In this document: positions 32,521-62,538 of the stretch, piece by piece
Layout: each line of letters opens with the position of its first letter
Numbering within the stretch: the stretch's first letter is position 1
Origin: Stachybotrys elegans
Taxonomy: Eukaryota > Ascomycota > Sordariomycetes > Hypocreales > Stachybotryaceae
Assembly: GCA_020746835.1 (NCBI GenBank)
Contig: JAGPNK010000003.1
Coordinates: 310,001-374,000, forward strand
Length of the DNA: 64,000 nucleotides
Reading direction: 5' to 3'
The notes under the pieces: generated by a model
Told to the model about the DNA's origin: nothing
The model's input: only the letters and a program-made list of their open reading frames with translations
The model's database searches: none
Translations under genes and position numbers: made by a program

Positions 32521-34432
32521 ATGGAAAGCGACATATATACCGATGAAGATTATTTCATACCCATTTCACCGCCGCTACAGCCATTTCGACCGAGACTAGA
32601 CAACAACGGGCTTGCTAGGGAACAAGAAATTAATGTATTAGATATTGACGAGGATACTCTTCTAGTGAGATACTTTCCCCATTACCCCGCGCTATCCTAA
32701 ACGCTGACAAGGCCCCAAGCACTCGCCCTGGTACGACAGTAGAAAAAATGCGGCTATAAGCGGAGGTGCTATCCTTCTTCACCATTTAAGCAATGGTAGA
32801 ATCCTCGAACCCCGTCAACCGGTTGCAACAATTGAGACAGATTCCTCCGGAGGTGGGAGTAAGGATGAACTGAACCCTTCTTCCTTCAATACTCGCCCTA
32901 CCTCCAATAATGAACCAAATGTCCCCCCCCAGTTATATTCTCCCGGGGGGCTATTCTTACCACCATTGCCCCCAAGTCCACCACGATCGCTGCCAAGTTC
33001 ACGATATTCGCCGCCGAGTTCACCACAAACGCCGCCCAGCATTAGAGAGACTTTCTCTAGTTCGTCCATACCGACATTCAAGCAAAGGCGTTCCAGACAC
33101 GTTCGGAAGCGCCTCGGGCTTCCGCTGCTTGTTCGCAGGAGTACTGTCGCTATAGAGGTCATGGGATGTCCAGATAGTGGCTCTGACACAAATATCATGT
33201 CTTTGGAGCTTGCTACGCAACTTGGACTGGAGTTGAGGCAACCTGGAGAGAATGGCGACCGCTTTTCACTTGCTAATGGAAAGCATGTACGGTCCATTGG
33301 TCAGACATCCGCAAAATGCTCGTTCCTAAACGATTCTTCGCCAGGATCCCCTCTTTTGGAGTGCATCTTCAACGTCTTCCAAACTTTGGCAGTACCAATG
33401 ATTCTTGGTATGGAGTTCCTCTTAGAAACAGAAACGTTAACGAAGCACACGGATCGTATGGTGGAACAGCTCGTCCCCGCCATGCAGTCGCTCAGGGTCA
33501 ACAGCATCGGAAAGCCTCGGCAGAGCCTCGTATGCCGTCTCGATAGGCATATCGGATGCGCGAATATCGATACCGGATCAGACTTGGACTTTGTTAGTCC
33601 CCAGTTTGCCCAGTCGAGAGGCTTTGCTGTTACGCCGGAGTTTGCAGAGCTGGAGTTTGCTGATTCTAGCAAAGGGTATACTTTGGGTGTCACAAAGGCT
33701 CCATTGTGTATAGGAAATTTGGACTCACTGGACAAATTTATTCCTAGTGACTCTTCTATTGATCTCGAGTTCTACGTGCTTGAGAATCTCAACGCGGACA
33801 TTCTGCTTGGATTGGACACCATCGAGGAGCTGAAAATTTTCGAGTTGCACACAGATTTATTTGTGCCTAGTCTTCCACGCTTGGGTGAATCCGATATCAA
33901 CATTATCCGCCATATTGGCAACGTGGAGAGAAAAACGTCATGGCTGTTCCAAAGGTTCAAAGGCATGTTTCGAAGCACATCCGGTGAGCAAGGCGGTGGT
34001 GAGTTCCTTCCCTTTCTTTACTTGGTACCCCAAACTTACCTGTCATTCTACCAGCTCCATTGGACGATCTCAGAAAACAGCTCAATATTGAAGACCAACG
34101 TGAAAATTCGCATCGCGAGGCTGTACGAGCTGTAATAGACAAACTTCAGGGCCACGAGAAGGCTGTGGCTCAGAGTGCAGAGAATGAGCGGATTCAACTA
34201 TTTGAGCAAGAACGAAACCGGCGCGTTCAATTATTGAACAACCCACGAGAAGATGCCTATCGTTGCAATGTGCTGGGATGCAGCGCACCGCCCTTTCCAA
34301 CACAGTACCTTCTTAATTCGTAGGTTTATGTGGATTGTTCCGCCTGGGTCTGTCTATCAACTTGCTAATGACAGTAGCCATGCCAATATTCACAGCAGTG
34401 AGAGACCGCATTACTGTCCAATCACAGGGTAG
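32521..34432 (+). CDS. Protein with two retropepsin-like aspartic protease modules and a C2H2-like tail
   Basis: Four exons (32521..32664, 32720..33998, 34055..34319, 34378..34432), 580 aa. After a Pro/Ser-rich N-terminus come two similar modules. The first has PDSGSDTNIMSLELATQLGL, a strand with SLANGKHVRSIGQ and the flap-side hydrophobic MILGMEFL. The second has NIDTGSDLDFVSPQFAQSRGF, FADSSKGYTLG and ILLGLDTIEEL. Each keeps the DS/TG catalytic triad and the terminal hydrophobic-hydrophobic-Gly strand of retropepsins, so one chain could form the two-lobed active site that viral proteases build by dimerisation. A coiled helical region (RENSHREAVRAV...NRRVQLL) follows. The tail YRCNVLGC...YLLNSHANIH forms a C2H2-like finger, completed by the final 55-nt exon. 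There is no reverse transcriptase or integrase nearby, so it is a domesticated or independent family. Activity is unproven. Confidence 0.75.
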
Positions 34433-34876: not shown

Positions 34877-36439
34877 CTAGGACGCCTTCTGTGAGGGGCA
34901 TAAGTGATGGACAGGCTCATCACCTATCTCGGCCATCTTATCCTCCAACTTCTTCATCATAACACGGACCACAGATGCATATTCTGCTTCGTGGTAACAA
35001 TTAAAAAGCTCCAACGGGTCCTTCTCGCAGTCGAAAAGCTCCCACTCCTTCTCCTCGCCACCAGGCTGCGTCCCCTCGAGTCCGAAATCCTCATTGTACC
35101 AGTAAATCAGCTTGTAGCGCTTATCACGGATGCCATAATGGGCCGACGCTCCATGGATCTTGTCGTTGTGCATCCAGTACCGGTGGTAAGCCACCTGCTG
35201 CCAATTCTCGGGAGTTGTGCCTTGGAGTAGTGACCGGAAGGAGAAGCCTTGCATATACGATGGTATCGTGACGCCGGCGAAATCGAGAAAGGTAGGTGCA
35301 AAGTCTACATTGCTGATGATGTCGTTGCAAACGCTGTTTGACTTGATCTCTCGGGGGTACCTGATTAGGAAAGGCATCTGGAAGCTCTCTTCATACATGA
35401 ATCGCTTATCGAACCAGCCATGTTCACCGAGGAAGAAGCCCTGGTCCGAGGTATAGATGACAATGGTATCCTTGGCCAAGTCTTCCTCGTCTAGATAATC
35501 CAGGAGCCGACCAACATTGTCGTCAATGCTCTGGATGGTGCGTAGATAGCGCTGCATATAGCGCTGGAACTTGAACTCCGCAAGTTCCTCTGGCGTACTG
35601 AAAGTGAAAGCTTCGCCTGTCTGCTTGCAGACGAGCTTCATCCTGGTCACATCAGATGGCGCTGGGATCTTGCGATCCGCCCGGTTCCACACATCCATCA
35701 GCTTCACGCCGACTTCTGCTGCCGGGCCCTCGGGCTGCACGAGGCCTAGGTCGGTGTATGTCAGATCCTCTGCGACTCTCATCTTGACAATTTTGGCAGC
35801 GTTGGCGCGATTCTTGTAATCGTCTGTGAAGGTATCTGGAAGCTTCACGGGATCCGTATACATGTCCTTGTGCTTGGAGTCATACTCCCATGACCGATGA
35901 GGTGCCTTGTGGTGGCACATGATGAAAAAGGGACGAGACTTGTCCCGCTTCTTCATCCAGTCAATACACTTGTCAGTGATGATATCGGTGGCGTAGCCCG
36001 GAACCTTTGACATGCCGCTGGGCTCAATGAACTGAGGGTCCCAGTATTCGCCCTGGCCTGGCACAACACTCCAGTAGTCGAAGCCTGCTGGCTCGTGGGC
36101 CTTGCCTTCACCGAGATGCCACTTTCCCACCATGGCTGTCTGGTACCTTTGCGGCGAAGCTCGCAGCTGCTTGGCGACGTTGGGGAGCCTCTTGGGCAGC
36201 GCCGAGTCAAGAGTTAGGACGCCATTGACGTGATTGTGTGTTCCGCACAGAATCGCGGCCCTTGATGGAGTGCATATGCTGTTGGTCACGTAGCAATGGT
36301 TGAAAAGCATTCCCTCGTTTGCAATCCGATCCAGATTCGGCGTGGAGTTGATCCCCTGCCCGTAGCAGGAGATGGACTTGGCAGCATGGTCATCGGCCAT
36401 GATGAACACGATGTTTGGGGGCGTGTCCAGCTTCATCAT
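34877..36439 (-). CDS. Sulfatase 1 (intracellular-type, alkaline phosphatase superfamily)
   Basis: Intronless. The frame is open from 36580, but the start is placed at ATG 36439 because MMKLDTPPNIVFIMADDHA is the normal beginning of the domain; this gives 520 aa. The catalytic signature is ICTPSRAAIL, with the cysteine at residue 56 that must be converted to formylglycine. Metal ligands come from NIVFIMADDHA and YTSDQGFFLGEHG, and GKWHLG is also present. No signal peptide is visible, so the enzyme is probably cytosolic. Its overall layout (GYATDIITDKCIDWM, SRPFFIMCHHKAPHRSWE) resembles glycan sulfatases of the N-acetylglucosamine-6-sulfatase / mucin-desulfating group more than the classical fungal arylsulfatase. 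Substrate is not determined. It is the first of three sulfatases in 12 kb, and its upstream region carries two CGG-N4-CGG elements. Confidence 0.88.
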   Translation of the reverse strand: MMKLDTPPNIVFIMADDHAAKSISCYGQGINSTPNLDRIANEGMLFNHCYVTNSICTPSRAAILCGTHNHVNGVLTLDSALPKRLPNVAKQLRASPQRYQTAMVGKWHLGEGKAHEPAGFDYWSVVPGQGEYWDPQFIEPSGMSKVPGYATDIITDKCIDWMKKRDKSRPFFIMCHHKAPHRSWEYDSKHKDMYTDPVKLPDTFTDDYKNRANAAKIVKMRVAEDLTYTDLGLVQPEGPAAEVGVKLMDVWNRADRKIPAPSDVTRMKLVCKQTGEAFTFSTPEELAEFKFQRYMQRYLRTIQSIDDNVGRLLDYLDEEDLAKDTIVIYTSDQGFFLGEHGWFDKRFMYEESFQMPFLIRYPREIKSNSVCNDIISNVDFAPTFLDFAGVTIPSYMQGFSFRSLLQGTTPENWQQVAYHRYWMHNDKIHGASAHYGIRDKRYKLIYWYNEDFGLEGTQPGGEEKEWELFDCEKDPLELFNCYHEAEYASVVRVMMKKLEDKMAEIGDEPVHHLCPSQKAS

Positions 36440-36687
36440 GTCGGAGGTGTCTCTACTTGCCGCTTCGAGTCTTTGTGCATGAAAAGGGAAAGAAGGGGAA
36501 TGATGTCGAGGCGCGGTGAGCGGGGATAGGGCGCGATTGTAGGGATTATTCGTATGGCCTCGCTCAGTGATTAAGGTCACATCTCCGAACTAGGATATTC
36601 CTTTGTCCCCTTCACCGACAGCGCATGCTCCTCAATCCGGAGTGCTGGCTTGTTAGGACCTAAACTTTAGTGGTCCAGCTCAAGTGT

Positions 36688-36702
36688 CGGTAATCGGCGA
36701 AC
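36688..36702 (+). promoter_or_regulatory. CGG-N4-CGG element, copy 1
   Basis: CGGTAATCGGCGAAC, 250 bp upstream of the sulfatase 1 start. Direct CGG triplets separated by 4 nt are a typical Zn2Cys6 dimer target. It matches the consensus CGGTARTCGGYGAWC shared with 36766-36780, 41984-41998 and 44590-44604. Confidence 0.55.
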
Positions 36703-36765
36703 AGGGTGTTGGCTGGTGGAGAATAAAACAGACAGCTGGCTAACCAGTGGTTTATTTTGCCACAG

Positions 36766-36780
36766 CGGTAATCGGTGAAC
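36766..36780 (+). promoter_or_regulatory. CGG-N4-CGG element, copy 2
   Basis: CGGTAATCGGTGAAC, differing from copy 1 at one position and lying 78 bp from it. Upstream of sulfatase 1. Confidence 0.55.
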
Positions 36781-36844
36781 GATGAGAGCACGCCATCACT
36801 CAGCCGTTGAGACAAAGCTGATTCCGGGGAAGCAATAACTTGGC

Positions 36845-36866
36845 GTTCCGGTGAAAGCCTCGGAAC
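36845..36866. promoter_or_regulatory. Inverted GTTCCG-N10-CGGAAC repeat
   Basis: GTTCCG at 36845-36850 and its exact reverse complement CGGAAC at 36861-36866, with a 10-nt spacer. The half-sites are the same as those fused without spacer in the palindromes at 46840-46853 and 49127-49142. Confidence 0.5.
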
Positions 36867-36875
36867 GATTGGCTC

Positions 36876-39158
36876 TCAGATGCAATCATGGGACGAACCT
36901 GGTGAGAAGTCACTCTGCCAACCCCAGGTCGGCCAAAGATTCAGGTCCCAGGTGCTCAGGTCCAGAGCCTCGAGTGGGCCAAACCCGGCGTGGATGTGGT
37001 CACCAACTGCTGCCAAGCCGGGATCACCCCATGCGCTGCCAGCCAGGCCGATTTGCCTGGACTCAAGCGGCATTTGCTGATCATGAATCGCAGCCGCTAC
37101 AGAGGGATTGGGGTTGACGAGGGCACCAACGGGCTCAGCTCGTCTCGCCTCTCTAGAGTCGTCGTCCTCGTCACGAAACCCCGCCTGTCTGAGCGCGCTG
37201 TGAATACCCAGCCTCGTGCGCCTCTGTATGTTCATGGCGAAGCGTGGCCGGTGGCTGCGATCTGCTTGCTCCTCGTCGGAAAATTCTCTGCGCTGATCTG
37301 GCGTCCCTGCCATGTGCATCGCAATGATATGATCGAGCTCTTTGACCGTCTTACCTAGCATCGCCGAGGAAGAAAACATGGAACGAATGATTCGTAGAGT
37401 CTCTTTGGCCATCTCTATCGCCTCTTCGTCCGTGATGTTCTGGTCCTGTGGTACAGCGTTGGATGCACCGAAAAAGAGTAGCAAGCGGGATGCGTGATAG
37501 CCGCCAATGCAAATGTCTCTAGGTGGTGCAACCAACTGTCGATTCAAATCCCGGACATCCTTGATGATGTTGATGAGGGTGCGGGCATGGTGAAGACACG
37601 AGATGGCAGCCCGCGACACGTAGCCAGGCTCGCAGGCCCGGATGACGGCATCAGGTGCGGCCTCTTGGTAGCCAGAAACAAAAAGTCGGTAAATATCGCA
37701 GTGTGTTTGATGCCATGCAATTTGAACCGCAACGTATCGTGGGAGCCATCTCGAGCCGGCATAGCGCTGAAGAGTCTCTGTGTTGTACGGTGGCGGCTCT
37801 ACTAGTCTGAGCGATTGGATCATCTCTTCAGCCAGGTCTGTGAGCTGGGGAGTGACATTGGACTCGACGGACAGCTGCCGCTTCAGCCGCATAACATCTC
37901 TTCGGACAATGCTTAGGCGAAGGTAAACCTGCAAGAGGCCGCCCTCGGCGACGCCATCCAGGGACGATGAGCTTAACGTTAACTCGCTGGCATGGAAGTC
38001 TTCCTCAGGGCATGGCATCTTGAGGTAGATGAGGTCCGACTGGCAGACGCTCGACTCGGGCAAGCCGACGGAGAAGTAGCTATCAACCAGCATGATGGAC
38101 CAAGTCAGACGTCTTCGGACTTCTTGGGATACGTGGTCCAAGTCGAGCCGCTCGTACTGCAGCCGCAATGCGCTGATAGACCGAGCGACGATGGACAGGA
38201 GCATAAATCCCCTCTTGAAGTTGCCCGTCTCAACGCGATATAGGACAGCGAGCAGGAGGGCCTGGGTCTTGAACACGGTAGGGCTCTCAATGCTTTGCCA
38301 TGCCAGATCCTCTGCACGCTGCACCCACAGGGAGGCATGGGATGGGTAGTACTTGGGGTATTTCATGATGCTCGTGGTGAGTCCGCAAATGGAGAGCAAC
38401 AGTGCTTCATTAATGGTCTCATCGAGGCACCGTTTGGTGACGGATATCTCGGAGAGGAAAGCGAAACCTGGCAGGGCGTAGATGTATCTGAAGAAGTCAT
38501 TGACCATCTGCAGCTGCTCGTGGGTTGTTGGGAGGGCCTGGCTGGACCTTGGGCTGTCCGCGCTGAAGTTGGACGCCGAGCTCTGCCAGGATTCGTTCAA
38601 CATGACGGCCGAGTTGGCCAGCAGGGAGCCGGCGGCTGCAGGTTCAAGTGCCCGGGTTGGCGCAGGCGATGGAAGAGATGGCGACGTGGGTTTCCTAAGC
38701 TGCTCCATTGCCTGCGACGAGCTACCAGGAGACGTAGGACAACCGCCTTGAAACGACAATGCGCCGTTGGATGAGGCCAGGCTAGCCCTCGACTGCGACG
38801 CGCGCCTCCTTGCGCCGGGATAGACGCAGTCCCTGGACCGCGCCTGGCACGGCTCGCACGAGGGCGTCTCGCCTGTGCACCTCGTCTTGTTGGCGCGGCA
38901 AGGAATGCACGCCAGCGGTCTCCGCCTCTTCTCCAGGCGAGGCAACGGCTGGGCATGGCGGCTGGGAGCCTCGGCAAAGAAGCAGGCAAACTCGAGCCGC
39001 TCGCAGTTGGAGCAGCAAGGCGGTCCTCCACTGCAGCGAACCTGAATAGAGAGAGAGAGGAGGTGGTTAGTCGGACAAGGACAAGGTCGCTTGAGGGAAC
39101 GACTCACCTTGCGAGCACGACATTGCACGCATGTATTGGCAGACCGGGCGGGCGGCAT
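36876..39158 (-). CDS. Transcription factor with two tandem Zn2Cys6 clusters and a fungal TF domain
   Basis: Two exons (39158..39108, 39041..36876), 738 aa from ATG 39158. An in-frame ATG at 39305 would add 49 residues. Two zinc clusters lie back to back: CVQCRARK/VRCSGGPPCCSNCERLEFAC (about 10-37, split by the intron) and CIPCRANKTRC...CEPCQARSRDC (about 63-90). Both fit CX2CX6CX5-6CX2CX6C. Most fungal regulators have one. The middle (about 220-600) is a typical fungal-specific TF domain with LPGFAFLSE, YPSHASLWVQRAEDLA and RRRLTWSIMLVDSYFSVGLP. The 66-nt intron is in frame and stop-free. It lies between two sulfatases, so it is a strong candidate regulator of the block, possibly through the CGG-N4-CGG motif. 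Targets are inferred. Confidence 0.87.
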   Translation of the reverse strand: MPPARSANTCVQCRARKVSRSLKRPCPCPTNHLLSLSIQVRCSGGPPCCSNCERLEFACFFAEAPSRHAQPLPRLEKRRRPLACIPCRANKTRCTGETPSCEPCQARSRDCVYPGARRRASQSRASLASSNGALSFQGGCPTSPGSSSQAMEQLRKPTSPSLPSPAPTRALEPAAAGSLLANSAVMLNESWQSSASNFSADSPRSSQALPTTHEQLQMVNDFFRYIYALPGFAFLSEISVTKRCLDETINEALLLSICGLTTSIMKYPKYYPSHASLWVQRAEDLAWQSIESPTVFKTQALLLAVLYRVETGNFKRGFMLLSIVARSISALRLQYERLDLDHVSQEVRRRLTWSIMLVDSYFSVGLPESSVCQSDLIYLKMPCPEEDFHASELTLSSSSLDGVAEGGLLQVYLRLSIVRRDVMRLKRQLSVESNVTPQLTDLAEEMIQSLRLVEPPPYNTETLQRYAGSRWLPRYVAVQIAWHQTHCDIYRLFVSGYQEAAPDAVIRACEPGYVSRAAISCLHHARTLINIIKDVRDLNRQLVAPPRDICIGGYHASRLLLFFGASNAVPQDQNITDEEAIEMAKETLRIIRSMFSSSAMLGKTVKELDHIIAMHMAGTPDQRREFSDEEQADRSHRPRFAMNIQRRTRLGIHSALRQAGFRDEDDDSREARRAEPVGALVNPNPSVAAAIHDQQMPLESRQIGLAGSAWGDPGLAAVGDHIHAGFGPLEALDLSTWDLNLWPTWGWQSDFSPGSSHDCI

Positions 39159-39467
39159 TTTGAGCACCACGCCCACGTCCTCGAGTGCAGTGTTGCCGTT
39201 GCTTCGACATGACGGGTTGAGCAAAGCCTGAGATGCTTCTTGGTCTGGATGCGACGAGAGCGTGATTGCGCCATAGCGGGGCCCTATACTGGGAACTGGG
39301 GTCAATTACAGCGGTGCATTACTGGCATACGCTGCTGGTTTAGTGTCTGGGCCACCACTTGACATTCAAGGCATTATCTGGACGCATTGCTTCTATTCTT
39401 TTACCTAAATACAAGTGAGGTAGGTATTAATTTTGAATGCGGTCTCCCATTAAATCATATACATGGG
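39159..39467. promoter_or_regulatory. Dual zinc-cluster regulator promoter / 3' flank of sulfatase 2
   Basis: 309 bp. It contains in-frame upstream ATGs relative to the regulator, and AT-rich sequence near 39400. No copy of the block's CGG-N4-CGG element was seen. Confidence 0.4.
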
Positions 39468-41654
39468 TTAATCTCTCAACTCCTCGGATGGAACTGTTGG
39501 TCCCATTTCCTCGTCCGTCAAGACATGGACATCCGCCATCAGATCCTCCATGGTGGCATGTCGCTGCTCAGGACCTCCTGCGGGCGTCTGATTCGGCCGT
39601 ACGCCAACCGTGCCAGGCGACGAGGACACCCAGTTGTCTGTCGGCTTCCGGTGCGCCTTGCCCAGGCCCTTCTCTGCCCCCGGCGGATAGAACGGCTTCT
39701 CGTTCTCCTCGTCCTGGTATAGCATGCATTTGCCAAAATGCACCTTGGGCATCTGCTCATAGAAGTCGTCGTACTCATACGCCATGGCTGCCGCGAGCGA
39801 GTTGACTCGACTCCTTGCCTGCGGCGGCTGGAGTGCTGACCACGGATCGCGGCAGCTGTCTCCGGTGCATGACTTGGTCACCATGAGGATGGCGTTTAGC
39901 CGGTGAATCAATCGCTGATGCTCATGCGCAACGTCTCCTCGCGCGAGGTTATTGATCTCCCAATGGTCGGCCTATCGTTTGCTTGTCAACGCTGCTCAAT
40001 TCGAAACACAGGACCATCACCAACCGTGGTGTTGTAGAGCTCCATCTCATTCGTGCACCAGTGGAGGAACATCCACGAGCTTTCCTCCGACACGATACGA
40101 AGCGTCTTGTAACTGTTGTTCACAAGTCTGACGCCAGCATATTCGGGAATTTCGACAATTTTGTCTCCCCAAAACTCAATGTTAATAATCTCCTTTGCTG
40201 AGCCAATCTCAAGACGCTTCTTGGGTACGGGGTCTCTCCAGTCCGAGAGCAGGCTTCGGCCATCGAGGAACTCCGGCCATTCTGCCTTGTCCAGGCCCAT
40301 TATCTCGAGAAAGGTTGGTGCAAAGTCTAGATGTGCGCTGGCGACCTTGGATTTCACCCCCTTTGGCATCTTCGGACCTCTGACGATAAGAGGGAGGTTC
40401 GTGTCCTGGATGTACGGAAGAGCTTTGCCTCCAGGCAAGCGATGCGCCCCAATGTGATAGCCGTTGTCCGTGGTGTAAATGACTACAATGTCAAATACCA
40501 TCTCGCGAACACCCTGGGGTGGAATACATACTGTACGTGTTGTCCAGCTGGCCAGCTTCATCGAGCTTGCTAATGACATCCTCAATGATTTCATCAATGC
40601 CTTGAATCGACTGGATCCGCCCCCGAAACAGTCGATCTGCGGATGCCTCTGCCTCGCTGTTCATTCGTTCCAAGTCCTTCAAGAAGACGCTTTTGCCTTG
40701 CTGTATCTCGTCCACAGGATTCCAGTTGGCGAACCGGGGGGCTTGGAGACCGGGAAACATGTCCGCATGCCGTGCTTGGGGCGTCGGCGGGTTGGACCCT
40801 GCGACATGCGGTGCATATGGCATGATTGCCAAAAAGAATGGATTTCGGTCGTTGAGAAGACGATCCAAGCGGTCAAGTCTGCGGATCACGATCAGAACAT
40901 GTCTTTCATGAGCTGGACATGACTGCTTACGCCTTGATTCTTACAACATCGTTGCTGTGAAAACCTCGATATTGGACTGGGCGTTCTCCATTTTGAGACA
41001 TGACGACGTTGTTGAAGTTGTTGATGTAAGGTTCAAGCTGCCGCAATGTCAACCGTGTTTTATGGCAATGATGCTGAGTGTCATACCAGGGCATCCACAT
41101 GATCCCATCCCTTGGGAGGAATGTGGTAGTTGGCCTGGCTGTAACCATTAAGGAACTTTCCAACCACTATTCAGAGTCAGACGACGTAACTCAATAAGAA
41201 GAAGGAAGACATGACAAACTCTCTGCCTTGTAGCCAGCCTTCTTGATCCAGTGAGGGAGGTAGTTTAGGTCTTCGCCAGCAAGACGCCATTTGTCGTAGT
41301 TACCTCTGCGAGTCCATTTCGTCAGTCCAACAAGACGGATTTCATGTATGCGGTCAAGTGTTTTACTTACCCAGGGGGGCGAACGTGCGTAATGTTGGTC
41401 GAGTGAGCGGCCTGGCCTCTGAGCAGCGAGGCCCTCGACGGACAGCAGTTGCTCACAGTGCCAAAATGATTCTCAAACTCGACTCCCTTGGCCACCAGTT
41501 CTCTCTGCAGGACCGGCATGTAGTCCAATGAGCCCAGCTGTCTGTCTTGGTCATCAGACATGATGAAGACAATGTTTGGCTTGTGGCAGTTTTTCCTGCC
41601 AAAGGCCAAGCCGGCCATGGCCAACGCCGTAACAAAGGACACAGTCAACCTCAT
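39468..41654 (-). CDS. Sulfatase 2, secreted arylsulfatase
   Basis: Seven exons (41654..41371, 41305..41220, 41166..41087, 41037..40931, 40878..40532, 40482..40025, 39971..39468), 621 aa. It starts with a signal peptide (MRLTVSFVTALAMAGLAFG), so it is secreted. NIVFIMSDDQD and CCPSRASLLRGQ (formylglycine cysteine C70) are the sulfatase signatures. THVRPPGGNYDKW, GKFLNGYSQANYHIPPKGWD, AIMPYAPHVAGSNPP, YTTDNGYHIGAHRL and APTFLEIMG follow in the usual order of fungal and plant arylsulfatases. The small exons (86, 80 and 107 nt) carry conserved blocks and are easily lost by gene callers. This family releases sulfate from aryl or glycan sulfate esters outside the cell and is induced by sulfur starvation in Neurospora. 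It is divergent from the sugar transporter over 609 bp holding shared motifs. Confidence 0.88.
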
Positions 41655-41748
41655 TTTGCCAGTCGCTTCTCAACATCCGGGGTTGAAGCCGTAGGCTGGA
41701 CGGATATGCCCTGGAAACCTCACCCATCTATTACTTTATACACTGCAT

Positions 41749-41812
41749 CTACAGCGGGTCGACAATGCAATCCGACTAGTAAAGACGGTTTACTTTTGTT
41801 GACCCGCTGTAG
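41749..41812. repeat. Inverted repeat with 15-bp arms in the sulfatase 2/transporter promoter
   Basis: CTACAGCGGGTCGAC (41749-41763) and GTTGACCCGCTGTAG (41798-41812) are reverse complements with one mismatch and a 34-nt spacer. The arms contain CGGGTC/GACCCG. It lies 95 bp upstream of the sulfatase 2 start codon, a plausible operator position. It could also form a hairpin. Confidence 0.65.
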
Positions 41813-41983
41813 GTGGACCACCGATAGCTTGGGCCGTACATAGACTGCCCTGCAGGATCCAATCACGAAATTGCGTCATTCTTGAGATTCTAACACCATT
41901 GCGGATCTAACGAGTTCTTCACCCGGTTGTAAGAGATCAACACGCACAAGATTGGCCCTCAATAAAATATCATGGTGACTGCT

Positions 41984-41998
41984 CGGTAGTCGGCGATC
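41984..41998 (+). promoter_or_regulatory. CGG-N4-CGG element, copy 3
   Basis: CGGTAGTCGGCGATC. Exact 15-bp match to 44590-44604 and 12-13 of 15 positions shared with the two copies upstream of sulfatase 1. Located between sulfatase 2 and the transporter. Confidence 0.6.
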
Positions 41999-42263
41999 CA
42001 CTTGGTTGCTTGCGAACAGGCTAATGCTCATCGCAACAGCTTGAACCGAGTGGTTGGACTTGCACGATTCCGGAAGACCCTGGGGGGGGGGAAATGTGCC
42101 AGCTGAAGGTATTACACTATGCGACGCTGCTGCTCCTCATGTTGGCGTCGAGGACAAGCCCCTTGGTTCTTTTAAAGGTTGCGACTGTCCGCCAACCCTC
42201 CAAGACAGACTCCTCAGGTTCATCTCAACTTGTCCAAGGTGCTCCCTCGTCTTCGCCGACAAC

Positions 42264-44164
42264 ATGTTGTACAAATTCCTCGCCAGCCACAATTACAAAG
42301 TCGGCCAGCATGTCTCGACGAACTTAGTCCTGGCCAGCATGGTCATGATGTCCAGTGTCTTTGCATATGGCTTTGAGAACTCTGTGCTTGCCACAATCCA
42401 GGCCATGGATGGTACGTCTGCTTGCACGTCGGATTCGCAAATCAACGACTGACTGTGACGGGCTCAATAGCTTACGAGCGTGCCTTTGGCCAGTACGACG
42501 AAAAGACGGAAAGGTTTGGCTTCACTGTTGCTCGCCTCGCCTATCTCAACTCGTTTCCCCTCATCACGTATGCCATTGGCGTTATTGCCGCCGGGCAGAT
42601 TGGTGAGCGCTGGGGTCGCAGGGTCGTCTTTTATGGAATGAACTGCATCTGCACGATTGGCGTTGGCATATGCTACGCAGCTAGGTCCTATGAGACGGCC
42701 CTCGTTGGAAGAATGATTATCAACTTGCACGTGGGAGCCGAGGCCTGGTTGGTCCCTATGTGGTTGGCAGAGATTGTCCCCGCAGCCGTCCGAGGTTCCA
42801 GTAAGTCATGGCGAGTCCCCTCACATTTCGGTTGCCTTTGCTAACCAAGCATCTCGCAGTGGTCGGTCTCTATCCCTTCAGCCACGTCTTCGCTAGTTTC
42901 CTCGCGGCCGTCGTCACCAACGCGACGAGCAAGATTCCTGGGGATGAAAGCTGGAAGATCCCCGTCCTCATCATGTTCGCCTTCCCGTCGTTTGCCCTGC
43001 TCATGGCCTGGGCCTTGCCCGAATCCCCTCGTTGGTTGCTGAGGAAGGGAAGGCACCAAGAAGCCATTGAGGGCCTTTTGTACATCAATGGCGCGGACAA
43101 GAACTACCCAGCGGAGCAGGAAGCCCAGCTCATCCTCAGCATGGCCGAGGACGCAGCTACCAAAGGCAAATGGAGTGAGCTATTTAAGGGTGTCAACAAG
43201 GCCAGTTTTCTGATACACAGCCAGTTGATTTAAAATACTGACTGACAATAGCGTCGTACTTGGGGTGGTCTCATTGCAGCTGGTGCCAACCAGCTCACGG
43301 GCCAGTCCTTCGCGTCAAGCTACGGTACTGTCTTTCTCAAGCAGATTGCTGTCATGGACCCCTTCACCGGAACCTTGATCAAGCGATCCCTTGTTCTCGG
43401 AGGCTGCATCTTTGTTATCACCATGGTCGAGAGGCTAGGAAGACGTCGAGTTGCGCTCACCGTCGGCAGCATAACCACCTCTGTTCTTATGATCATGGGT
43501 GGCCTCGGTACCATTCACGAACCCAACAGATCCGAGAAACTTGGTATCTTGGCCATGACGATCATCTTCCCGTGCACTTACATCATCGCATTCGGCTCTA
43601 CGTGAGTATCCCTTCCTGTCCCGGGATGTCCCCGAACTCTAACAAGTTTTCCAGTATGACAGTGATCAAGGCTGAAATTCCTCATACTTCCTTGCGTGAC
43701 AAGTCCAACATGCTGTTTTGGAGTTGTTCCAACATTGGCAACTTTGTCACAACCTTTACGGTGCCTTACCTCATTCGTTCGCCTGGCGCCAATCTGGGAT
43801 CCCGAGTCGGTTTCATCTACGGAAGCATCGCCGCAGTCTTTCTGGTGCTCCTATTCTTCTTCGTGCCCGAGATGACTGGCAAGTACGTACAGACATGACA
43901 AGAAACTATAGGATTGCATACTAACCGATTAGGTCCCTTGAAGAAATTGACGAGATGTTTGAGAGGCGCATCCCCGCCTGGCAAAGCAGAAGTACGAGCC
44001 AAACTAGCAAATCGGGCTTGAAGAGACGTGCGCTAACTGAGAGAATAGATTTCAGGGCGACGGGCATGGCAGCAGCTGTTACTGATCTGGAGAACCACCA
44101 TGCCAGCACCGCCCTGGATGAGAAGCTGGACTCTATCGAGAATGTCGTCGAGAAGCGATCTTAG
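42264..44164 (+). CDS. MFS sugar transporter (sugar porter family)
   Basis: Six exons (42264..42411, 42471..42800, 42860..43200, 43252..43601, 43655..43882, 43933..44164), 542 aa. Sugar-porter signatures are visible in order. GERWGRRVVF lies after helix 2, EAWLVPMWLAEIVPAAVRGS in helices 4/5 and the loop, PESPRWLLRKGR before the central loop, ERLGRRR after helix 8, and PEMTGKSLEEIDEMF after helix 12. It should act as a proton symporter for a mono- or oligosaccharide at the plasma membrane. The third intron (43201..43251) does not fit a GT donor at the conserved position. A GC donor (AAG/GCCAGT) gives the family-like join VNKRRTWGGL. The GT alternative at 43189 would delete VNK. It lies between sulfatases, consistent with uptake of a desulfated (or still sulfated) sugar. 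Confidence 0.9.
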
Positions 44165-44580
44165 TGTTGGATGTGTACAAAGAGACGAGCTGCGAGTCAC
44201 GAGAGCCTTGGATATTTTAGATGGCCTTGGAACTCAAGCATCGAAGGACTCAGGGTGTTGAAGTTAGCATTAGATGACATTGGCCTAGTCGTATGCCTCA
44301 AATGGAGGGTATATACAAGACAAAGACCCAGAGTCGGCGTATGATTACTGAAACCAGTGGATTGACTACTCCAAGAATAAAAATGATGAACATACATCTC
44401 GAACAAATGTCTCTGGCAGCCTGACGCCAGAATTTGGAACAGCACATAGGAATCTGAGCCGTGTACGGCCAGTAGAATACCGCTACAGGCTACCATTGAG
44501 AAAGAAACGCGGGGAAACCCCACCGAGAATCCAGTCTGACTGGGGAAGCACCGTTTTGCTGAATAGGGGGATCGTGACTC

Positions 44581-44604
44581 GTCGGCGATCGGTAGTCGGC
44601 GATC
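44581..44604 (+). promoter_or_regulatory. CGG-N4-CGG element, copy 4, with adjacent half copy
   Basis: GTCGGCGATC at 44581-44590 is followed by GGTAGTCGGCGATC. The core CGGTAGTCGGCGATC at 44590-44604 is identical to 41984-41998. The 10-mer GTCGGCGATC is therefore tandemly repeated with a 4-nt gap. 239 bp upstream of sulfatase 3. Confidence 0.6.
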
Positions 44605-44708
44605 AACACCAATGATCCCTGCTTTCAACTACTCCAATTGCTCGGGATCACAGGACGCGAGGAGTATGGTGCGAAGTTACCATTGAATGACGTGAGGGTG
44701 TTAATGTC

Positions 44709-44726
44709 CATGTTTCTCGGAGCAAA
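44709..44726 (+). promoter_or_regulatory. Shared CATGTTTC-TCGGAGCAAA element, copy 1
   Basis: CATGTTTCTCGGAGCAAA, 117 bp upstream of the sulfatase 3 start. It differs from the copy at 46869-46887 only by one missing C. It contains a CGG triplet. Confidence 0.55.
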
Positions 44727-44740
44727 CTGTACATGACTGA

Positions 44741-46626
<1,886 letters not shown>

Positions 46627-46839
46627 AAATGATATGTCTGCAAGCGGAAGTAGGGTCTCGTCCCTTGTGTGCTGGCAAGTCATAGTCACAGCAGAAGCTC
46701 AGCCACCTCCCGTTACCCAGTGCCAATAGCCAGTTTCATGTCTAGCAGCATGCATAAAGTCACTGATTCTATCCCATTCGGGCGTAGGATTGGGTACTCC
46801 GTAATAAGTGGGTGACGGCCCCATCAATTTGTCATCTCC

Positions 46840-46853
46840 GGTTCCGCGGAACC
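46840..46853. promoter_or_regulatory. Perfect palindrome GGTTCCGCGGAACC
   Basis: 14-bp perfect inverted repeat with a central CCGCGG (CCG/CGG triplets), 145 bp upstream of the second regulator. Core GTTCCGCGGAAC is identical to the palindrome at 49127-49142 before the SDR gene. Confidence 0.6.
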
Positions 46854-46868
46854 TGCTCCCCTGGAACT

Positions 46869-46887
46869 CATGTTTCCTCGGAGCAAA
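46869..46887 (+). promoter_or_regulatory. Shared CATGTTTC-TCGGAGCAAA element, copy 2
   Basis: CATGTTTCCTCGGAGCAAA, 111 bp upstream of the second regulator; same sequence as 44709-44726 with one extra C. The distance to the start codon is also similar in the two genes (117 and 111 bp). Confidence 0.55.
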
Positions 46888-46997
46888 TGCATCTCATCCT
46901 CGAGCTGGCAGGAGTAGGTTGGTCTCTTTGCTTAACCAGGACATCTTGATCACACTTGTGCCCTCCCCCCCAATTGCATCGGACTTCGGGATTGACC

Positions 46998-48836
46998 ATG
47001 GAAAGCGGTGGAGTACGGCGAAAGGTAAAGCATCAAATGCCCCTCCATAAGCGACAATTGATGGTGCTGACCGACTTTGCGCCCAAGGCATGCGATCTTT
47101 GCTATAGAAAGAAGATAAAGTGCGACGGGAAAAAGCCTCTTTGCTCTCATTGCGTCACGTACGCCTCCGACTGTACTTATGGCTGCACGAGTCGAAAGAA
47201 AAAGCCCCGAAGAAAAGAGCCCGATAAGCCCGAAGCAGACCAACAGGATCGTGTTAAGTTTCTGGAAGCCCACATCAAGGCTCTGGAACAAAAGATTGAG
47301 GTCATGACAAGCCTATCTTCGGGTCTACAGAGTATCCCGGCGGAGATGATAACGCCTCAGAGTGATGAACCCATTCCTCCTAGAGCAGGTCCGTTTTCGT
47401 CCTCGGCATCTGCAAACCTGCCACCACAAGAAGAGGTGCTACCAATAGTCGAACACTATTTGACTACCTCGAATTCGCAGCTACCCCTGTTCCATCCGAG
47501 AACGCTCCTCAGCATGGTAAGGGCGTGGTATCAAGAGCCGCACACTAGGGATCCCATCACTTGGGCAGCTATCAATATAGTCCTCGCACTCGGGCTTCAG
47601 TTCGACAATCCCAAGAGCGCAGCCAACTACGCAATGCATGCACAGTCAATGCTCACACAAGTGACAACGGGCCAAGTGACCATAGTCAACGTGCAGATAC
47701 TCCTGGGGCTCGTCATGTTTCTCTACGGCATATACGACTTTGGCCCCCCTTCCATGCTCATAGCCATTGCGCTGCGCTTAGCACAGCAACTTGGACTTCA
47801 CACAAGGATGTCATCACAAGGCCTCGACCCGCACCTACAACTGCAGCGTGCCAGGGTCTTTTGGATTGCCTACATCTTGGATAGGGACATCAGTTTGAGG
47901 ATTCGACAGGCTCCTATCCACCAAGATGACGACATCGACCTGGATCTACCAGGTGAGAGTGCTAGCGATGAGGCTGGTCAGGTACTCGCACCCGATGGCC
48001 AGAGGAGAATGAACTTTTTCCGGGCCCGGGTACTGCTGGCTCGTATCGAGGGACGGTACTACCATTTGCGATATTCCGTCAAAGCAGCCAGCGCGAGTAC
48101 TGACGAGCAGGCCAAAGCTATGGCAGCCATGCGCCAACAGCTGGATGAATGGGACTCTCAAGTGCCTCATGCATTCAGCCCAAGGGCACTATGCGAAGAT
48201 GAAGACGATGTGTCTGGACTGACAAGGTCATTCACTATGCTATTCGCCACGCGCCTGACATGCATGTGCGTGGCCAGTCAAGCTTCCACCATGAACCTCA
48301 TGTGGATAGAGAGTCTGCGTAACTTTGGTAGAACGGCCATTGCAGGTTTGGGACCCTCGTTGACGCCCCTGCCAACGAATTGGCAGACACTTGTTGAGGA
48401 CTCTCGAGACTTTTTGAAGCTGTTTATGGGCTTCAAGAAGAGAGACTCGACTTTCATCTGGTGAGTTGACCATTTGCACGCTCTATCTAAAATAAAACTT
48501 CTCGCTAACCAGGAGTGTTCACACGTTACTAGGACTGCTTTATGCGGCTTCGGAAGTGGGATTCTCTGTCTGACGGCGAATAACATGTGTGACCCTTATC
48601 ACCCGAGTGCCGAGGATGACATTCTGCTCGTAGAGTCGGCACTTCGGGTGATGGAGGCCTGGACCGAGGAAGTAAATATTAACTGGGTATCGAGGGTCCG
48701 CGACACTTGCAGAGAGCTCGCCTCCCATGCACGCTATATTGTCGAGCACAAGCAACTCCCGCATATTCCCATCTTCAACGGTCTGCTTGTTGATGGGCCG
48801 TTTCTGAACTCTTTCCTTTTGAGTAAGAATGACTAG
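46998..48836 (+). CDS. Zn2Cys6 transcription factor with fungal TF domain
   Basis: Three exons (46998..47024, 47088..48460, 48533..48836), 567 aa. The first intron is inferred: GTAAAG..CCCAAG, 63 nt with CTGAC. Removing it joins MESGGVRRK to ACDLCYRKKIKCDGKKPLCSHC, the usual immediate start of a zinc cluster. Retaining it also keeps the frame. The cluster is CX2CX6CX6CX2CX6C. A basic linker (SRKKKPRRKE) and a coiled coil (VKFLEAHIKALEQKIEVM, about 58-75) for dimerisation follow. The middle domain has SQLPLFHPRTLLSMVRAW, AIALRLAQQLGLHTR and RRVFWIAY-like RARVFWIAYILDRDISLR. The last acceptor is 48532; the nearer AG at 48512 gives a premature stop. Positioned between sulfatase 3 and the SDR, it is probably a local regulator. 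Palindromes in its own promoter may be autoregulatory. Confidence 0.87.
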
Positions 48837-49126
48837 GGAGTAAAGTTATGGGCGCTATCTTGAACTTCTTATGCAGGACCTAGAAAATGTAGAACATGAT
48901 GGAATTCTATTCGGGCTATTGCACCAATTCCATTTGTTGACCTGAGTGAAAACATAATCGCCACAAGGCAAGCCTTTTCACAGGAACTTTTATAGCCCAT
49001 CGGCCGAGGCCTATTGCCTGTTACAAGAAGCTATGATCCCCAGCAACAAAAATGCAACGACATTCGCCACTGACTGACACGGCGCTTGGATCTTTGGAGA
49101 CCCGCGTCCTCACTGCCTTCGTGGGA

Positions 49127-49142
49127 CAGTTCCGCGGAACTG
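49127..49142. promoter_or_regulatory. Perfect palindrome CAGTTCCGCGGAACTG
   Basis: 16-bp perfect inverted repeat centred on CCGCGG, 171 bp upstream of the SDR start. The 12-bp core equals that of 46840-46853. Confidence 0.6.
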
Positions 49143-49180
49143 CTACCCCAGCTGTCCTACAAGTCTTCACTAATCTGAGA

Positions 49181-49194
49181 GGTTCCATGGAACC
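49181..49194. promoter_or_regulatory. Perfect palindrome GGTTCCATGGAACC
   Basis: 14-bp perfect inverted repeat, 39 bp downstream of the previous palindrome. Same outer arms (GGTTCC/GGAACC) but a CATG-type centre in place of CGCG. Confidence 0.55.
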
Positions 49195-49312
49195 ACCCAT
49201 GCCCTCCTTCGTAGGATAAATATCTGATAGCGCAGCCCATAATCTTCAGTCATCTACACAATCAATTCTATCCAGCACACCTTGACTCTCGACAGACTCC
49301 ACGCATTCCACC

Positions 49313-50286
49313 ATGGCAGACTCGACTGAGCAGATCAAGGCCCCAGCTTGGGCGAGCTTCACCAAGACCCATCACTCCAAGCCATATCCATTCATCTCAC
49401 CCACAAGACCTGAGCTCTCTGCCGCTGGTAAGAGCGTCTTGATTACTGGAGGTGGCTCTGGTATTGGCAAAACCGTTGCCATCGCCTTTGCGCAAGCCGG
49501 AGCCGCCTCCATAGCCATCATCGGCCGTCGTCTCAACCGTCTTCAGAGCACAGCTGCTGAAATCACCGCCAGCAGCACCAAGAATGCCGAGGTGTATTTT
49601 GAGTCGGGCGACATTGCCCAGCGCTCATCAATTGACGCAGCAGTGTCCGCGATCGGTGGGAAGATGGGCAAGATTGACATCTTTGTTCCGTGTGCGGGCA
49701 TCCTGACGCGATTCGGCCCGCTCCGCGACTATGATGGGGATGAGTTCAAGCGAGGCCTGGATATGAATGTCATGGGGGCGTTCAATGCCTTACAGGCTTT
49801 CCTGCCGTGGGCTGCCCCGAATGCCATGGTGTTCAACATTTCGTCGGCTCTCGCCCACGTCAAACCCAACCTCGAAGTGGTTTCGTATGCCGTGAACAAG
49901 ATTGCCATCGCCAAGATGTTCGACTATCTCGCCGCCGAAAATCCGGATCTCCACGTCGTCAACATCCAGCCGGGTGTCATTGACACTGAGATCACCGACG
50001 GCTACGACATAGAAAGCCAAGATGAAGGTACGTCCTCGCGGTTGCGGTGCATGCCGCGAAACTTGAAAAGCATTCACTTGATTTCTCGAAAGGCTCATTA
50101 TGACTGACACTGATTCCAGTTGAGCTTCCTGCGCATTTCCTCGTGTGGCTGGCGTCACCAGAGGCAAGGTTTCTTAAAGGGAAATTTGTGTGGGCCAACT
50201 GGGATGCAAAAGAATTGATGACAAGGGCAGAGGAGATCAAGACCTCGCGGCTACTCACCATATATCTGGACGGTGTCCCTATCTAG
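49313..50286 (+). CDS. Short-chain dehydrogenase/reductase (SDR)
   Basis: Two exons (49313..50027, 50120..50286), 293 aa. The cofactor motif TGGGSGIG (residues 45-52) lies in a Rossmann start (SVLITGGGSGIGKTVA). The catalytic residues are Ser177/178 (FNISSA) and the YxxxK pair Tyr192/Lys196 (SYAVNK). GRRLNR after strand 2 suggests NADP(H) preference. A ~38-residue N-terminal extension (MADSTEQIKAPAW...) precedes the core and matches the fungal SDR group with TFTKTHHSKPYPFI-like starts. The C-terminal exon carries LASPEARFLKGKFVWANWD. Classical SDRs oxidise or reduce hydroxyl/keto groups of sugars, steroids or polyketides. Next to the sulfatase-transporter block it could process the released alcohol or sugar, but substrate is not predictable. 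Promoter palindromes link it to the second regulator. Confidence 0.88.
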
Positions 50287-53110: not shown

Positions 53111-54254
53111 CTACCCATCATGAGGCTCGCCACCCTCGGACAGCCCTTTCATGTATCCCTCCAGAATGTCGATCGACACGTTGCTGCCGCCGCACACAAC
53201 AAAGACAACAACGCTGTCGCGCCCCAGCGTCGGCACCAGCTCCGACAGGCGCCCGCTGTAGCACAGGGCAAAGCACACCCCGCAGGCAGGCTCGACCAGA
53301 TAGCGCTCGTCATTGGCGAATCGGCGGCACGCCTCGACCGCCTCCTTGTCCGAGAAGACGGCTGTAGACACCGTGTCCCGCAACCCGTACTCCAGGGCCT
53401 TCCGGCACACCGTCCTCGGCCCGAGGCTTGTCGCCAGGCTTGTGATGGCGGGCAGCGTAATCAGCTCTCTGCTGGCCACGGCTTTGGCTAGAGACTCGGC
53501 CCCCTTGGTCTCGACGCCGATGACCCTGGTTTGGTCCATCTTGAGCTCGTCCAGGCCCTGCACTATGCCGCAGAACAGCCCACCTCCTCCCACGCTGCAT
53601 ACAATGGCATCGAGCCGGCCGACATCCAGAGATTCCCCGCCGTCCGATGCGGGATAGTGCCTGGACGCATCCCACAGCTGGCTGACCGTCTCGTGGGCAA
53701 TGAGGGCATTTCCCTCCCAGATTTCAGGAGCATCGAAAGGTGGAACGTAGACAGCAGTCTCCCCCGACTGCTGGGCCTCCGGCATCACTGTCCCGACGAG
53801 ATGCTCGTCGGCTTCCTGCCAAGACTCCCCGTGCCGGACCACGGCCACTGCCCCGGCCTGCCGAAGCTTGGACACCATGCAGTCTGTGGTGGTGAGAGGC
53901 ACGACCACGGTTGCTTTGCAGCCCAGCGTCACGGTGCCGTGGACGCAGCCCAGCCCGGCATTGCCGCCCGAGGAACTGTAGAAATGCACGGGGCCAGCAG
54001 CGTCGCTGTTGCTGCCCGCACGGATGGACGCGAGCTTGGCCGTCAGGAAATGACCTATGCCTTGCGACTTGAACGACCCCGAGGGCTGCAGGCTCTCCAT
54101 TTTGAGATAGACGTTGCTTGCAAAACGGTTAGCCGACCCGTCACTGGGCATCCAGACGCCTTGCTTGGTTCACGCACCAGCCTGCCACATTGGAGAGCGT
54201 GGCGGATCGTATCAGTGGAGTCTCAATCCACGGCACTTTTTTGTGCGACTTCAT
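53111..54254 (-). CDS. L-serine/L-threonine dehydratase (PLP fold type II)
   Basis: Two exons (54254..54178, 54116..53111), 360 aa. The first exon (MKSHKKVPWIETPLIRSATL) is needed for the normal N-terminus; splicing gives AGCNVYLKMESLQPSGSFKSQGIG. The PLP-binding lysine is K42 in SGSFKSQG. The phosphate-binding and substrate loops are SSSGGNAGLG and the Gly-rich VCSVGGGGLFCG. The enzyme class deaminates serine or threonine to pyruvate or 2-oxobutyrate and ammonia. There is no regulatory ACT domain, so it is a catabolic form like yeast Cha1. It sits head to head with the 2OG oxygenase about 1 kb away. The dense antisense frames over this gene are shadows from its high GC3. Confidence 0.92.
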
Positions 54255-61436: not shown

Positions 61437-62538
61437 AATCTGCCAATTGCTGTTAGCACCATGGGCTCGGGTACCATGGACGGTTGTGGGCTTACTGTGA
61501 GGCGAAGGAAACCTTCATCAGATCAAGCGAATATGTTTGTTGTGTTCGAGGGCGTCCGATAGTGGATGGATAGAAGGCATAGCAAACAGCATCACCTCCA
61601 GGCTCTCCTCGGGTTGCTCAAGGAGACTGCTGGTCCCTGCTGAGCGATCTTCACAGCCTCGAATAGCGAGAAAGAAAGAAAGAAAGCACGGGGTGATCTC
61701 TTGAGTTTGCATCCACCAGAGCAGGCAAAGGGCTGTGAGGTGGGTTGATGATTGGCGGTCGGAGGTGGGAGAGGCAGCCACGAAAACGTCAAGAGGCAAA
61801 CGAGAAGTTTTTGCTTGTTCCACCCTATGAATGCAATACGAAATTGGGAAATAAAATGTGAAGAAGCGTAGGCAAGCTTTGTGGGTGACGCTGCCAGCTG
61901 TCGCTCCATTCTCCAAATCCCTTGCCAGCTGGCGGGACGTTTCTGCACCCTGATACAGACATCACTGTCCATCTCCGGTATTCAGATTCTTGGACTGACG
62001 GTCGGGGATTGGTTCAGTTTGGAATACACAGGGACTGGACAGTGGACTCCAATTCCTAGCTCTAGGAGATGTGCTTTTGGTGGCTATATTGGTTCATCGG
62101 GGGCAATCATGCCGAGATTCTCTTTCAGCTTGTATTATTGCCTTTTCTGGTCGAGATTTCATGCCAAATGAAGGCCTTGTTTTGATGTTGCAAAAGAGAT
62201 ATACCTTCGCAAACATTGAACAGGAATTCTAAAGCAGGAATACAACCTGTCGTCGGCTCCGTTTGGTATTAAAAGCTCGAAATCCCGGGTAATGAGATGG
62301 CTTATTACGCTCCTATTACTCCATCTACTTCATCATGTGCTACCACGTGACGTGCAGTGAGGCTCAAGAGCCTTAGGTAGTGACATACATCAGCTGCGGC
62401 TGAAGCCACGTCATCTTGTCCCTCGATCATCTATTTATTCCATTGCATTGCCCTCTGGTTCTATTTCATTCCCCGTTGCCCGACTTTCTCGTACTTTGTT
62501 TAGCAAACATCGGCTCCTCGTGTGACTGGATAGTTACG
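61437..62538. other. Intergenic region with a (GAAA)n microsatellite
   Basis: 1.1 kb between diverging genes. A short GAAA tract (about 61668-61686) is the only repeat. Frames on the minus strand (61518-61972) overlap and have no domains. A CTATTTATTCC stretch near 62430 could be a TATA element for the downstream HET gene. Confidence 0.55.

Follow-up and report, generated by a model that had tools for sequence, protein, structure and literature searches.

Seven genes encoding three sulfatases (S1, S2 and S3), a transporter of the major facilitator superfamily (MFS), two Zn2Cys6 regulators (Zn1 and Zn2) and a short-chain dehydrogenase (SDR) lie within 15.4 kb (positions 34877-50286) of a 64-kb stretch of Stachybotrys elegans DNA, hereafter the window (C23:310001-374000; the genome comprises 43.4 Mb in 61 contigs). 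S. elegans belongs taxonomically to the Hypocreales, family Stachybotryaceae, and parasitises Rhizoctonia solani, as stated in excerpts of a published report (PMC4413796). A preliminary description of this DNA proposed that the seven genes jointly serve the use of sulfate esters or sulfated glycans. Here, we describe the genes, their promoters and their relatives in other fungi, which together make it rather probable that five of them, S1, Zn1, S2, MFS and S3, are the core of a catabolic cluster for sulfate esters.

Gene models of the locus

The gene models were predicted from DNA alone, with GT-AG introns picked by eye and by reading frame. All seven spliced models run from ATG to stop without interruption, their Pfam domains agree with the gene content first described, and no further gene was recognised between them (Table 1). 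For S1, the ATG at 36439 was preferred over the GTG at 36580 of the raw open reading frame (ORF). By eye, the hydrophobic N-terminus of S2 looks like a signal peptide; none is evident in S1 or S3. XylE (6n3i and 4gby) and GLUT3 are the nearest solved structures of the MFS product, and SDR scored under the cut-off for each of the best 25 of the 213 NCBIfam families that it matched. Zn1 contains two complete Zn2Cys6 clusters in tandem, the first of which is interrupted in the gene by its single intron.

The public model of the locus (P0001) presents Zn1 and S1 as one fusion protein of 1046 amino acids (aa), in which the first zinc cluster is broken off, the second is absent and the N-terminus of S1, including the N-terminal metal ligands, is missing. 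The DNA favours two genes, as a stop codon follows Zn1 and 436 bp then separate it from S1, and P0001 is probably a misannotation that hides both of them.

Table 1. Genes and sequence elements of the locus, and the single PF03781 gene of the genome (window positions unless a contig is given).
Feature	Position	Strand	Description
S1 sulfatase	36439-34877	-	single exon, 520 aa, CTPSR; PF00884 E 7e-56, SGSH_C 1e-51
Zn1 regulator	39158-36876	-	738 aa; two tandem Zn2Cys6 clusters and Fungal_trans (Pfam)
S2 sulfatase	41654-39468	-	7 exons, 621 aa, CCPSR; PF00884 E 9e-45
MFS sugar-porter family transporter	42264-44164	+	6 exons, 539 aa; Sugar_tr 5e-73
S3 sulfatase, predicted AtsA-type arylsulfatase	44843-46626	+	3 exons, 560 aa, CSPTR; PF00884 E 5e-54
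Zn2 regulator	46998-48836	+	588 aa; one Zn2Cys6 cluster, Zn_clus and Fungal_trans; doubtful cluster member
SDR short-chain dehydrogenase	49313-50286	+	2 exons, 293 aa; adh_short; doubtful cluster member
CGGTAATCGGCGA core direct repeat	36688..36700	+	249 bp upstream of S1 ATG
CGGTAATCGGTGA core direct repeat	36766..36778	+	327 bp upstream of S1 ATG
CGGTAGTCGGCGA core direct repeat	41984..41996	+	divergent S2/MFS promoter; 330 and 268 bp from the ATGs
CGGTAGTCGGCGA core direct repeat	44590..44602	+	241 bp upstream of S3 ATG
CTACAGCGGGTYRAC 15-bp inverted repeat	41749..41812 (arms 41749-41763 and 41798-41812)		between S2 and MFS
TTCCGCGGAA palindrome	46842..46851		about 147 bp upstream of Zn2 ATG
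TTCCGCGGAA palindrome	49130-49139		upstream of SDR
TTCCATGGAA palindrome	49183-49192		upstream of SDR
CTCGGAGCAAAC	44716..44727	+	upstream of S3
same word (..AAAT)	46877-46888		upstream of Zn2
ATTGCGCCAT CYS-3-like site	39265..39274	+	107 bp upstream of Zn1 ATG
PF03781 gene (L009)	C23:1372015-1375317		DinB domain adjoining; nearest EgtB sulfoxide synthases

The sulfatases and their active-site cysteine

The sulfatase fold (PF00884) scores over the cut-off in S1, S2 and S3, and the spliced models confirm that C-x-P-x-R is intact, with cysteine, in all three. Genome-wide, merging the 20 sulfatase exon matches leaves 15 places, of which 12 are strong and the other three partial or weak. Here, three of the strong loci fall inside about 11 kb, a clustering that exceeds chance because random placement of 12 loci would be expected to give about 5e-5 such triples.

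It was fair to describe the three as members of three different subfamilies. In a search of the PDB, which holds solved structures only, S1 aligns with 5g2v, a GlcNAc-6-sulfatase, over residues 7-507 (E 4e-124) and also matches the mucin-desulfating sulfatase 7p24. We take both of these to be members of subfamily S1_11, so that among solved structures S1 appears closest, over its full length, to S1_11 enzymes. S2 has no close solved relative in the same search, its best match being again 5g2v, in pieces (E 7e-25), and by eye it carries leucine at the position of the histidine in the Lys-x-His of Pseudomonas arylsulfatase (PAS); its motifs GKFLNGY and DNGYHIG would suggest the GNS/SULF type (S1_6). 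S3 aligns over residues 1-541 with PAS (4cxs and 1hdh; E 1e-187) and keeps its Asp-Asp, Cys-x-Pro-x-Arg, Lys-x-His, His and Asp-Asn positions, which presumably have the metal, nucleophile, lysine and histidine roles of the PAS active site; the best PDB chain aligned has alanine in place of the active-site cysteine. This full-length similarity and these residues would make S3 an arylsulfatase of AtsA type (S1_4). In SulfAtlas, S1_4 includes AtsA, and S1_11 includes MdsA as well as a heparin 6-O-sulfatase (excerpts of PMC5066984). Unlike Pseudomonas AtsA, S3 is fungal, has three exons and adjoins an MFS porter gene, and no formylglycine maturase was found in its genome.

How, then, would the active-site cysteine be matured? 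The preliminary description called the three motifs formylglycine motifs. The domain profile of the formylglycine-generating enzyme (FGE; PF03781) matches only one gene in the whole genome, which we read as an ergothioneine-type enzyme because it adjoins a DinB domain, resembles EgtB most closely and has no cysteine in the C-terminal segment searched. The stretch taken for this gene starts about 100 bases before its ATG, and any upstream methyltransferase part would lie outside it. The model of the radical-SAM maturase of the anaerobic sulfatase-maturating enzyme (anSME) type, TIGR03942, has no match in the genome. These searches ran exon by exon, so that a divergent gene could escape them and a missed or novel maturase is possible; within that scope, 12 strong sulfatase loci stand against no detected FGE or anSME. 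Formylglycine modification is apparently absent from fungal arylsulfatases according to the consulted part of a review, which cites an unmodified enzyme of Fusarium proliferatum (PMC5857272). Pichia pastoris, in excerpts of another study, is reported to activate human GALNS with no FGE supplied, and up to 1.8-fold better when FGE is added (PMC4932491). The motif itself thus stands, and the formylglycine that its name implied does not follow from it, because neither known maturase was found.

Promoter elements and the two regulators

The word CGGTARTCGGYGA, a direct repeat of the form CGG-N4-CGG, has six exact copies in 43.4 Mb, of which four lie in the cluster: two in the S1 promoter, one between the divergent S2 and MFS genes and one before S3, all 241-330 bp from an ATG. 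Of the two copies outside, one is within a coding frame resembling a UDP-glycosyltransferase (L010), and the other (L011) showed no Pfam family in the four frames scanned. The reversed pattern, used as a control, has 10 copies in the genome; the core 10-mer CGGTARTCGG has 102, and its reversed control 303. The repeat is therefore concentrated here and not enriched genome-wide, with four copies of the 10-mer seen in 16 kb where 0.038 were expected (Poisson P ~8e-8 for four or more). As it had been picked post hoc, it was also tested against the six intergenic stretches (2,878 bp) after dinucleotide shuffling: the best 13-mer family, with one mismatch allowed, reached four copies in none of 2000 shuffles and three copies in 35, and never exceeded two copies in a smaller run of 150. 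Strong sulfatase loci outside the cluster number nine. Seven of them, taken with about 1.5 kb on either side, contain no exact copy of CGGTARTCGGYGA, although two of the seven (L002 and L008) have copies with two mismatches; the exact search of the whole genome shows none near the other two. S1, S2/MFS and S3 accordingly share a specific promoter element, which is absent before Zn1, Zn2 and SDR, and co-regulation of S1, S2, MFS and S3 is supported by its distribution. The inverted repeat CTACAGCGGGTYRAC between S2 and MFS was also considered as a regulon-wide motif and rejected: its two arms are the only exact copies in the genome, and the 16 one-mismatch copies elsewhere compare with 33 for the reversed control.

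Zn2 and SDR are preceded by other elements, the palindrome TTCCGCGGAA before both and TTCCATGGAA before SDR as well, neither of which occurs before S2, MFS or S3. TTCCGCGGAA has 32 copies in the genome (reversed control, 29). In the window, TTCCNNGGAA occurs five times against 1.22 expected, at least five copies being found in one of 100 shuffles, and four of the five copies are in intergenic stretches of the cluster. A looser form, TTCCGGGGAA, is found at 36822 between S1 and Zn1. We also note an inverted repeat, CGTTCCG-N10-CGGAACG, in the same gap just before the stop side of Zn1 (36844-36867), with the half-site of TTCCGCGGAA and a spacing of about one helix turn. Two other close pairs of TTCCGCGGAA in the genome (C4:913652 and 914176; C22:184143 and 184200) are possible further targets of a factor that binds it.

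The shared promoter motifs of the preliminary description are thus real, but they form two separate sets. Because Zn2 and SDR lack the core repeat and carry a different palindrome, the seven genes split into five and two, and the core probably consists of S1, Zn1, S2, MFS and S3, Zn1 being counted in by its position and linkage and not by a motif. Might all seven nevertheless be one unit, in which Zn1 and Zn2 act jointly and SDR acts, by oxidation or reduction, on the alcohol that the sulfatases set free? The 15.4 kb without any other recognised gene agree with this, as does the word CTCGGAGCAAAY, which stands 110-116 bp before both S3 and Zn2, has 12 copies in the genome (reversed control, 13) and argues mildly for the membership of Zn2 originally assumed. 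In view of the promoters of Zn2 and SDR, from which the core repeat is missing, and of their palindromes, missing in turn before S2, MFS and S3, we find a seven-gene unit rather doubtful.

Which factor would read the core repeat? Two zinc clusters in one chain suit a direct repeat, and it is in this respect that Zn1 may be paired with it. By pattern, 23 of 39 Zn1 homologues have both clusters, three have one and 13 have none, the last being two fused models and 11 proteins of 528-693 aa. Upstream of Zn1 itself is the only exact ATBRCGCCAT of the window, ATTGCGCCAT, which resembles a site of the sulfur-starvation regulator CYS-3/MetR; with 1.04 expected per 64 kb, and at least one in 58 of 100 shuffles, it is compatible with chance and may be taken as a lead only. 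An 11-mer with one mismatch to a CYS-3 site lies at 36787 before S1. The third form, ATGRYRYCAT, has four exact matches in the whole window and none between 34 and 51 kb, and neither it nor ATBRCGCCAT occurs exactly before S2, MFS or S3. In excerpts of a Neurospora study, CYS-3 is reported to bind and activate ars-1, the choline sulfatase gene and eight MFS genes, and its sites are listed as ATBRCGCCATC, ATGGCGCCAT and ATGRYRYCAT (PMC8550094). The locus could accordingly be a sulfur-scavenging set like ars-1, under this global regulator and not a local one, with which the two sites before Zn1 and S1 would agree. The S. elegans set resembles the CYS-3 regulon, as excerpted, in combining sulfatase and MFS genes of the kind used for non-preferred sulfur sources (PMC8550094), but it differs in its nearly private CGG repeat and in having one possible CYS-3 site before Zn1. 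Since that repeat points to a local factor, and since exact CYS-3 sites are lacking upstream of S2, MFS and S3 and the one before Zn1 is of the number expected by chance, we consider control by CYS-3 alone unlikely.

Linkage in other fungi and the proposed function of the cluster

Linkage of S1, Zn1, MFS and S3 in other genomes was judged from equal-sized contigs, locus tags and fused gene models. Homologues of S3 and MFS are on equal-sized contigs in nine of the 19 named organisms common to both match lists (Aplosporella, Clonostachys rosea, Cordyceps, Microdochium, Neofusicoccum, Paramyrothecium, Penicillium canariense, Phialemonium and Sporothrix), and three of these have consecutive tags for the two genes: Penicillium canariense (N7482_001649/001650), Sporothrix stenoceras (Sste5346_003919/003920) and Phialemonium thermophilum (VTK73DRAFT_8218/8217). 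Equal-sized contigs were also found for Zn1 and S3 in two of 10 named organisms, besides one further contig of 106,120 bases, and for Zn1 and MFS in two of nine. In Fusarium subglutinans, a single model (P0021) contains Zn1 followed by S1 and is best explained by gene prediction having joined two neighbouring genes. Linkage of S3 with MFS and of S1 with Zn1 thus appears to recur, in part, in other fungi, and the absence of conserved linkage, which the preliminary description had named, together with a lack of co-expression, as speaking against a cluster, would not apply to these two pairs.

Several observations weigh on the other side. In 10 of the 19 organisms the contigs carrying S3 and MFS differ in size (some rows represent several strains), and in Thyridium curvatum their tags are non-adjacent (008907 and 010389). 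The contigs range from 10.8 kb to 9.2 Mb, and large ones say little alone because equal size at the megabase scale is not adjacency. The MFS homologues of the nine organisms are 30-63% identical to that of S. elegans, and the tree puts three of them (from Phialemonium, Cordyceps and Paramyrothecium) into a different paralogue clade. Matches linking Zn1 to S3 or MFS are few, and in Paramyrothecium the Zn1 homologue concerned has 27% identity. With regard to the regulatory pairing, the Zn1 promoter lacks the core repeat, and Zn2, encoded in the same locus, might be the factor that binds it.

In maximum-likelihood trees of selected rows (49 for S3, 26 for Zn1 and 30 for MFS), S. elegans groups with Apiospora in all three with support of 100/100, joined by close metagenome sequences in the S3 and Zn1 trees. 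The S3 match list gives 82-83% identity for Apiospora against at most 59% for named Hypocreales; the next neighbour in the MFS tree is Clonostachys, which is also of the Hypocreales. This congruent placement of three genes would fit transfer as a cluster, or loss in most lineages. One could go further and regard the locus as a self-regulated, horizontally mobile cluster, in which Zn1, possibly acting as a monomer, reads its nearly private repeat and the sulfatases dispense with formylglycine, relying on an unmodified cysteine or a novel maturase; so complete a picture is possible, though we hold it to be doubtful.

What surrounds the genes bears on their substrate. The flanks contain 73 stop-to-stop ORFs of at least 130 aa, of which 20 were scanned with Pfam. 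No glycoside hydrolase or polysaccharide lyase was found in the seven genes or in these 20 ORFs, so the locus lacks, as far as scanned, the depolymerase that marks a polysaccharide utilisation locus; with S3 of arylsulfatase type in addition, the sulfated glycan of the preliminary description is without support. The same facts would agree with detoxification or the tailoring of secondary metabolites, namely desulfation of aryl or steroid-like compounds instead of a nutrient pathway, all the more as SDR and its palindrome, which presumably resembles pleiotropic-drug-response elements, adjoin S3. However, the transporter is a sugar porter of XylE/GLUT type, S1 is nearest to carbohydrate sulfatases, and no polyketide, peptide or terpene synthase was found among the 20 flanking pieces, which makes this explanation quite improbable.

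Three neighbouring or related genes were considered and set aside. A PALP gene (53114-54169) was examined as a cysteine synthase, by which the cluster would reach into sulfur assimilation, and left out, its nearest relatives being serine/threonine dehydratases. A 2OG-Fe(II) oxygenase gene at 55726, tried as a sulfate-ester dioxygenase of AtsK/TauD type, belongs to PF03171, which we take to be a Pfam family other than that of TauD. An MFS paralogue on contig C3 (55% identity) was tried as part of a second sulfatase-transporter pair, and C3 has no sulfatase match. As to the wider surroundings, genes with HET (heterokaryon incompatibility) domains flank the cluster region on both sides (19921-21717 and 62404-63999), and an ORF at its left edge (32708-34132) has weak similarity to retroviral-type aspartyl proteases (E 4e-5) and may be the remnant of a retroelement.

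A pathway-specific catabolic sulfate-ester cluster with a five-gene core is the explanation that we favour and think somewhat probable, together with the mechanism outlined below. Gene content, the placement and rarity of the motifs, the partial linkage that recurs elsewhere and the catalytic motifs are observed; from them we infer what binds the repeat, where the proteins are localised and how the substrate flows. An outline is as follows: Zn1, perhaps itself under the sulfur-starvation regulator CYS-3/MetR, would bind the CGG-N4-CGG repeat before S1, S2/MFS and S3, its two zinc clusters in one chain reading two half-sites of the same orientation, and activate these genes jointly. Secreted S2 would strip accessible sulfate outside the cell, the MFS porter would import a small sugar or glycoside, either sulfated or desulfated, and cytosolic S1 and S3 would remove the remaining sulfate, which leaves a carbon skeleton besides free sulfate. 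The neighbouring Zn2 and SDR would be a unit of their own under a different palindrome. Of the joint function first proposed, sulfate-ester use is retained for a linked and apparently co-regulated set with a nearly private repeat and partial linkage elsewhere, while sulfated glycans, the membership of Zn2 and SDR, and formylglycine have no comparable support here.

Bacterial polysaccharide utilisation loci likewise combine several types of sulfatase with a transporter and regulators, and S1 resembles 5g2v and 7p24. These loci carry SusC/D; the S. elegans cluster instead has introns, an MFS porter, Zn2Cys6 regulators and local control by a CGG repeat, with no glycoside hydrolase or lyase in the pieces scanned. 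Fungi have pathway-specific nutrient clusters, such as those for nitrate, quinate, galactose and proline, in which enzymes and a porter are accompanied by a local Zn2Cys6 regulator with CGG half-sites. The present cluster is like them in enzymes, porter, local regulator and shared CGG half-sites, and differs in its sulfate-ester enzymes, its regulator with two zinc clusters and its nearly cluster-private repeat. The locus is therefore best described as extending this known type of fungal nutrient cluster with a co-regulated sulfate-ester set. That no fungal equivalent has been described agrees with the titles and abstract beginnings covered (most subscription journals being outside that scope), in which no fungal sulfatase cluster appears, although partly linked homologues do exist in other ascomycetes. 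A strain of Fusarium proliferatum has been reported to use fucoidan as a carbon source with a sulfatase, and the sulfatase of strain LE1 to be unmodified at the formylglycine cysteine; in the consulted part of that review this is a single enzyme with no cluster described, compared with the three clustered sulfatases found here (PMC5857272).

Sulfate esters are among the main forms of sulfur in soil, and their use by fungi is less known, as the same review puts it in the part consulted (PMC5857272). A compact cluster with its own regulator offers a handle on both the substrate and its control. With 12 strong sulfatase loci and no detected FGE or anSME, the activation of fungal sulfatases becomes directly testable in one organism, and the double-zinc-cluster regulator and its candidate site would provide a clean test of whether such proteins read a direct repeat.

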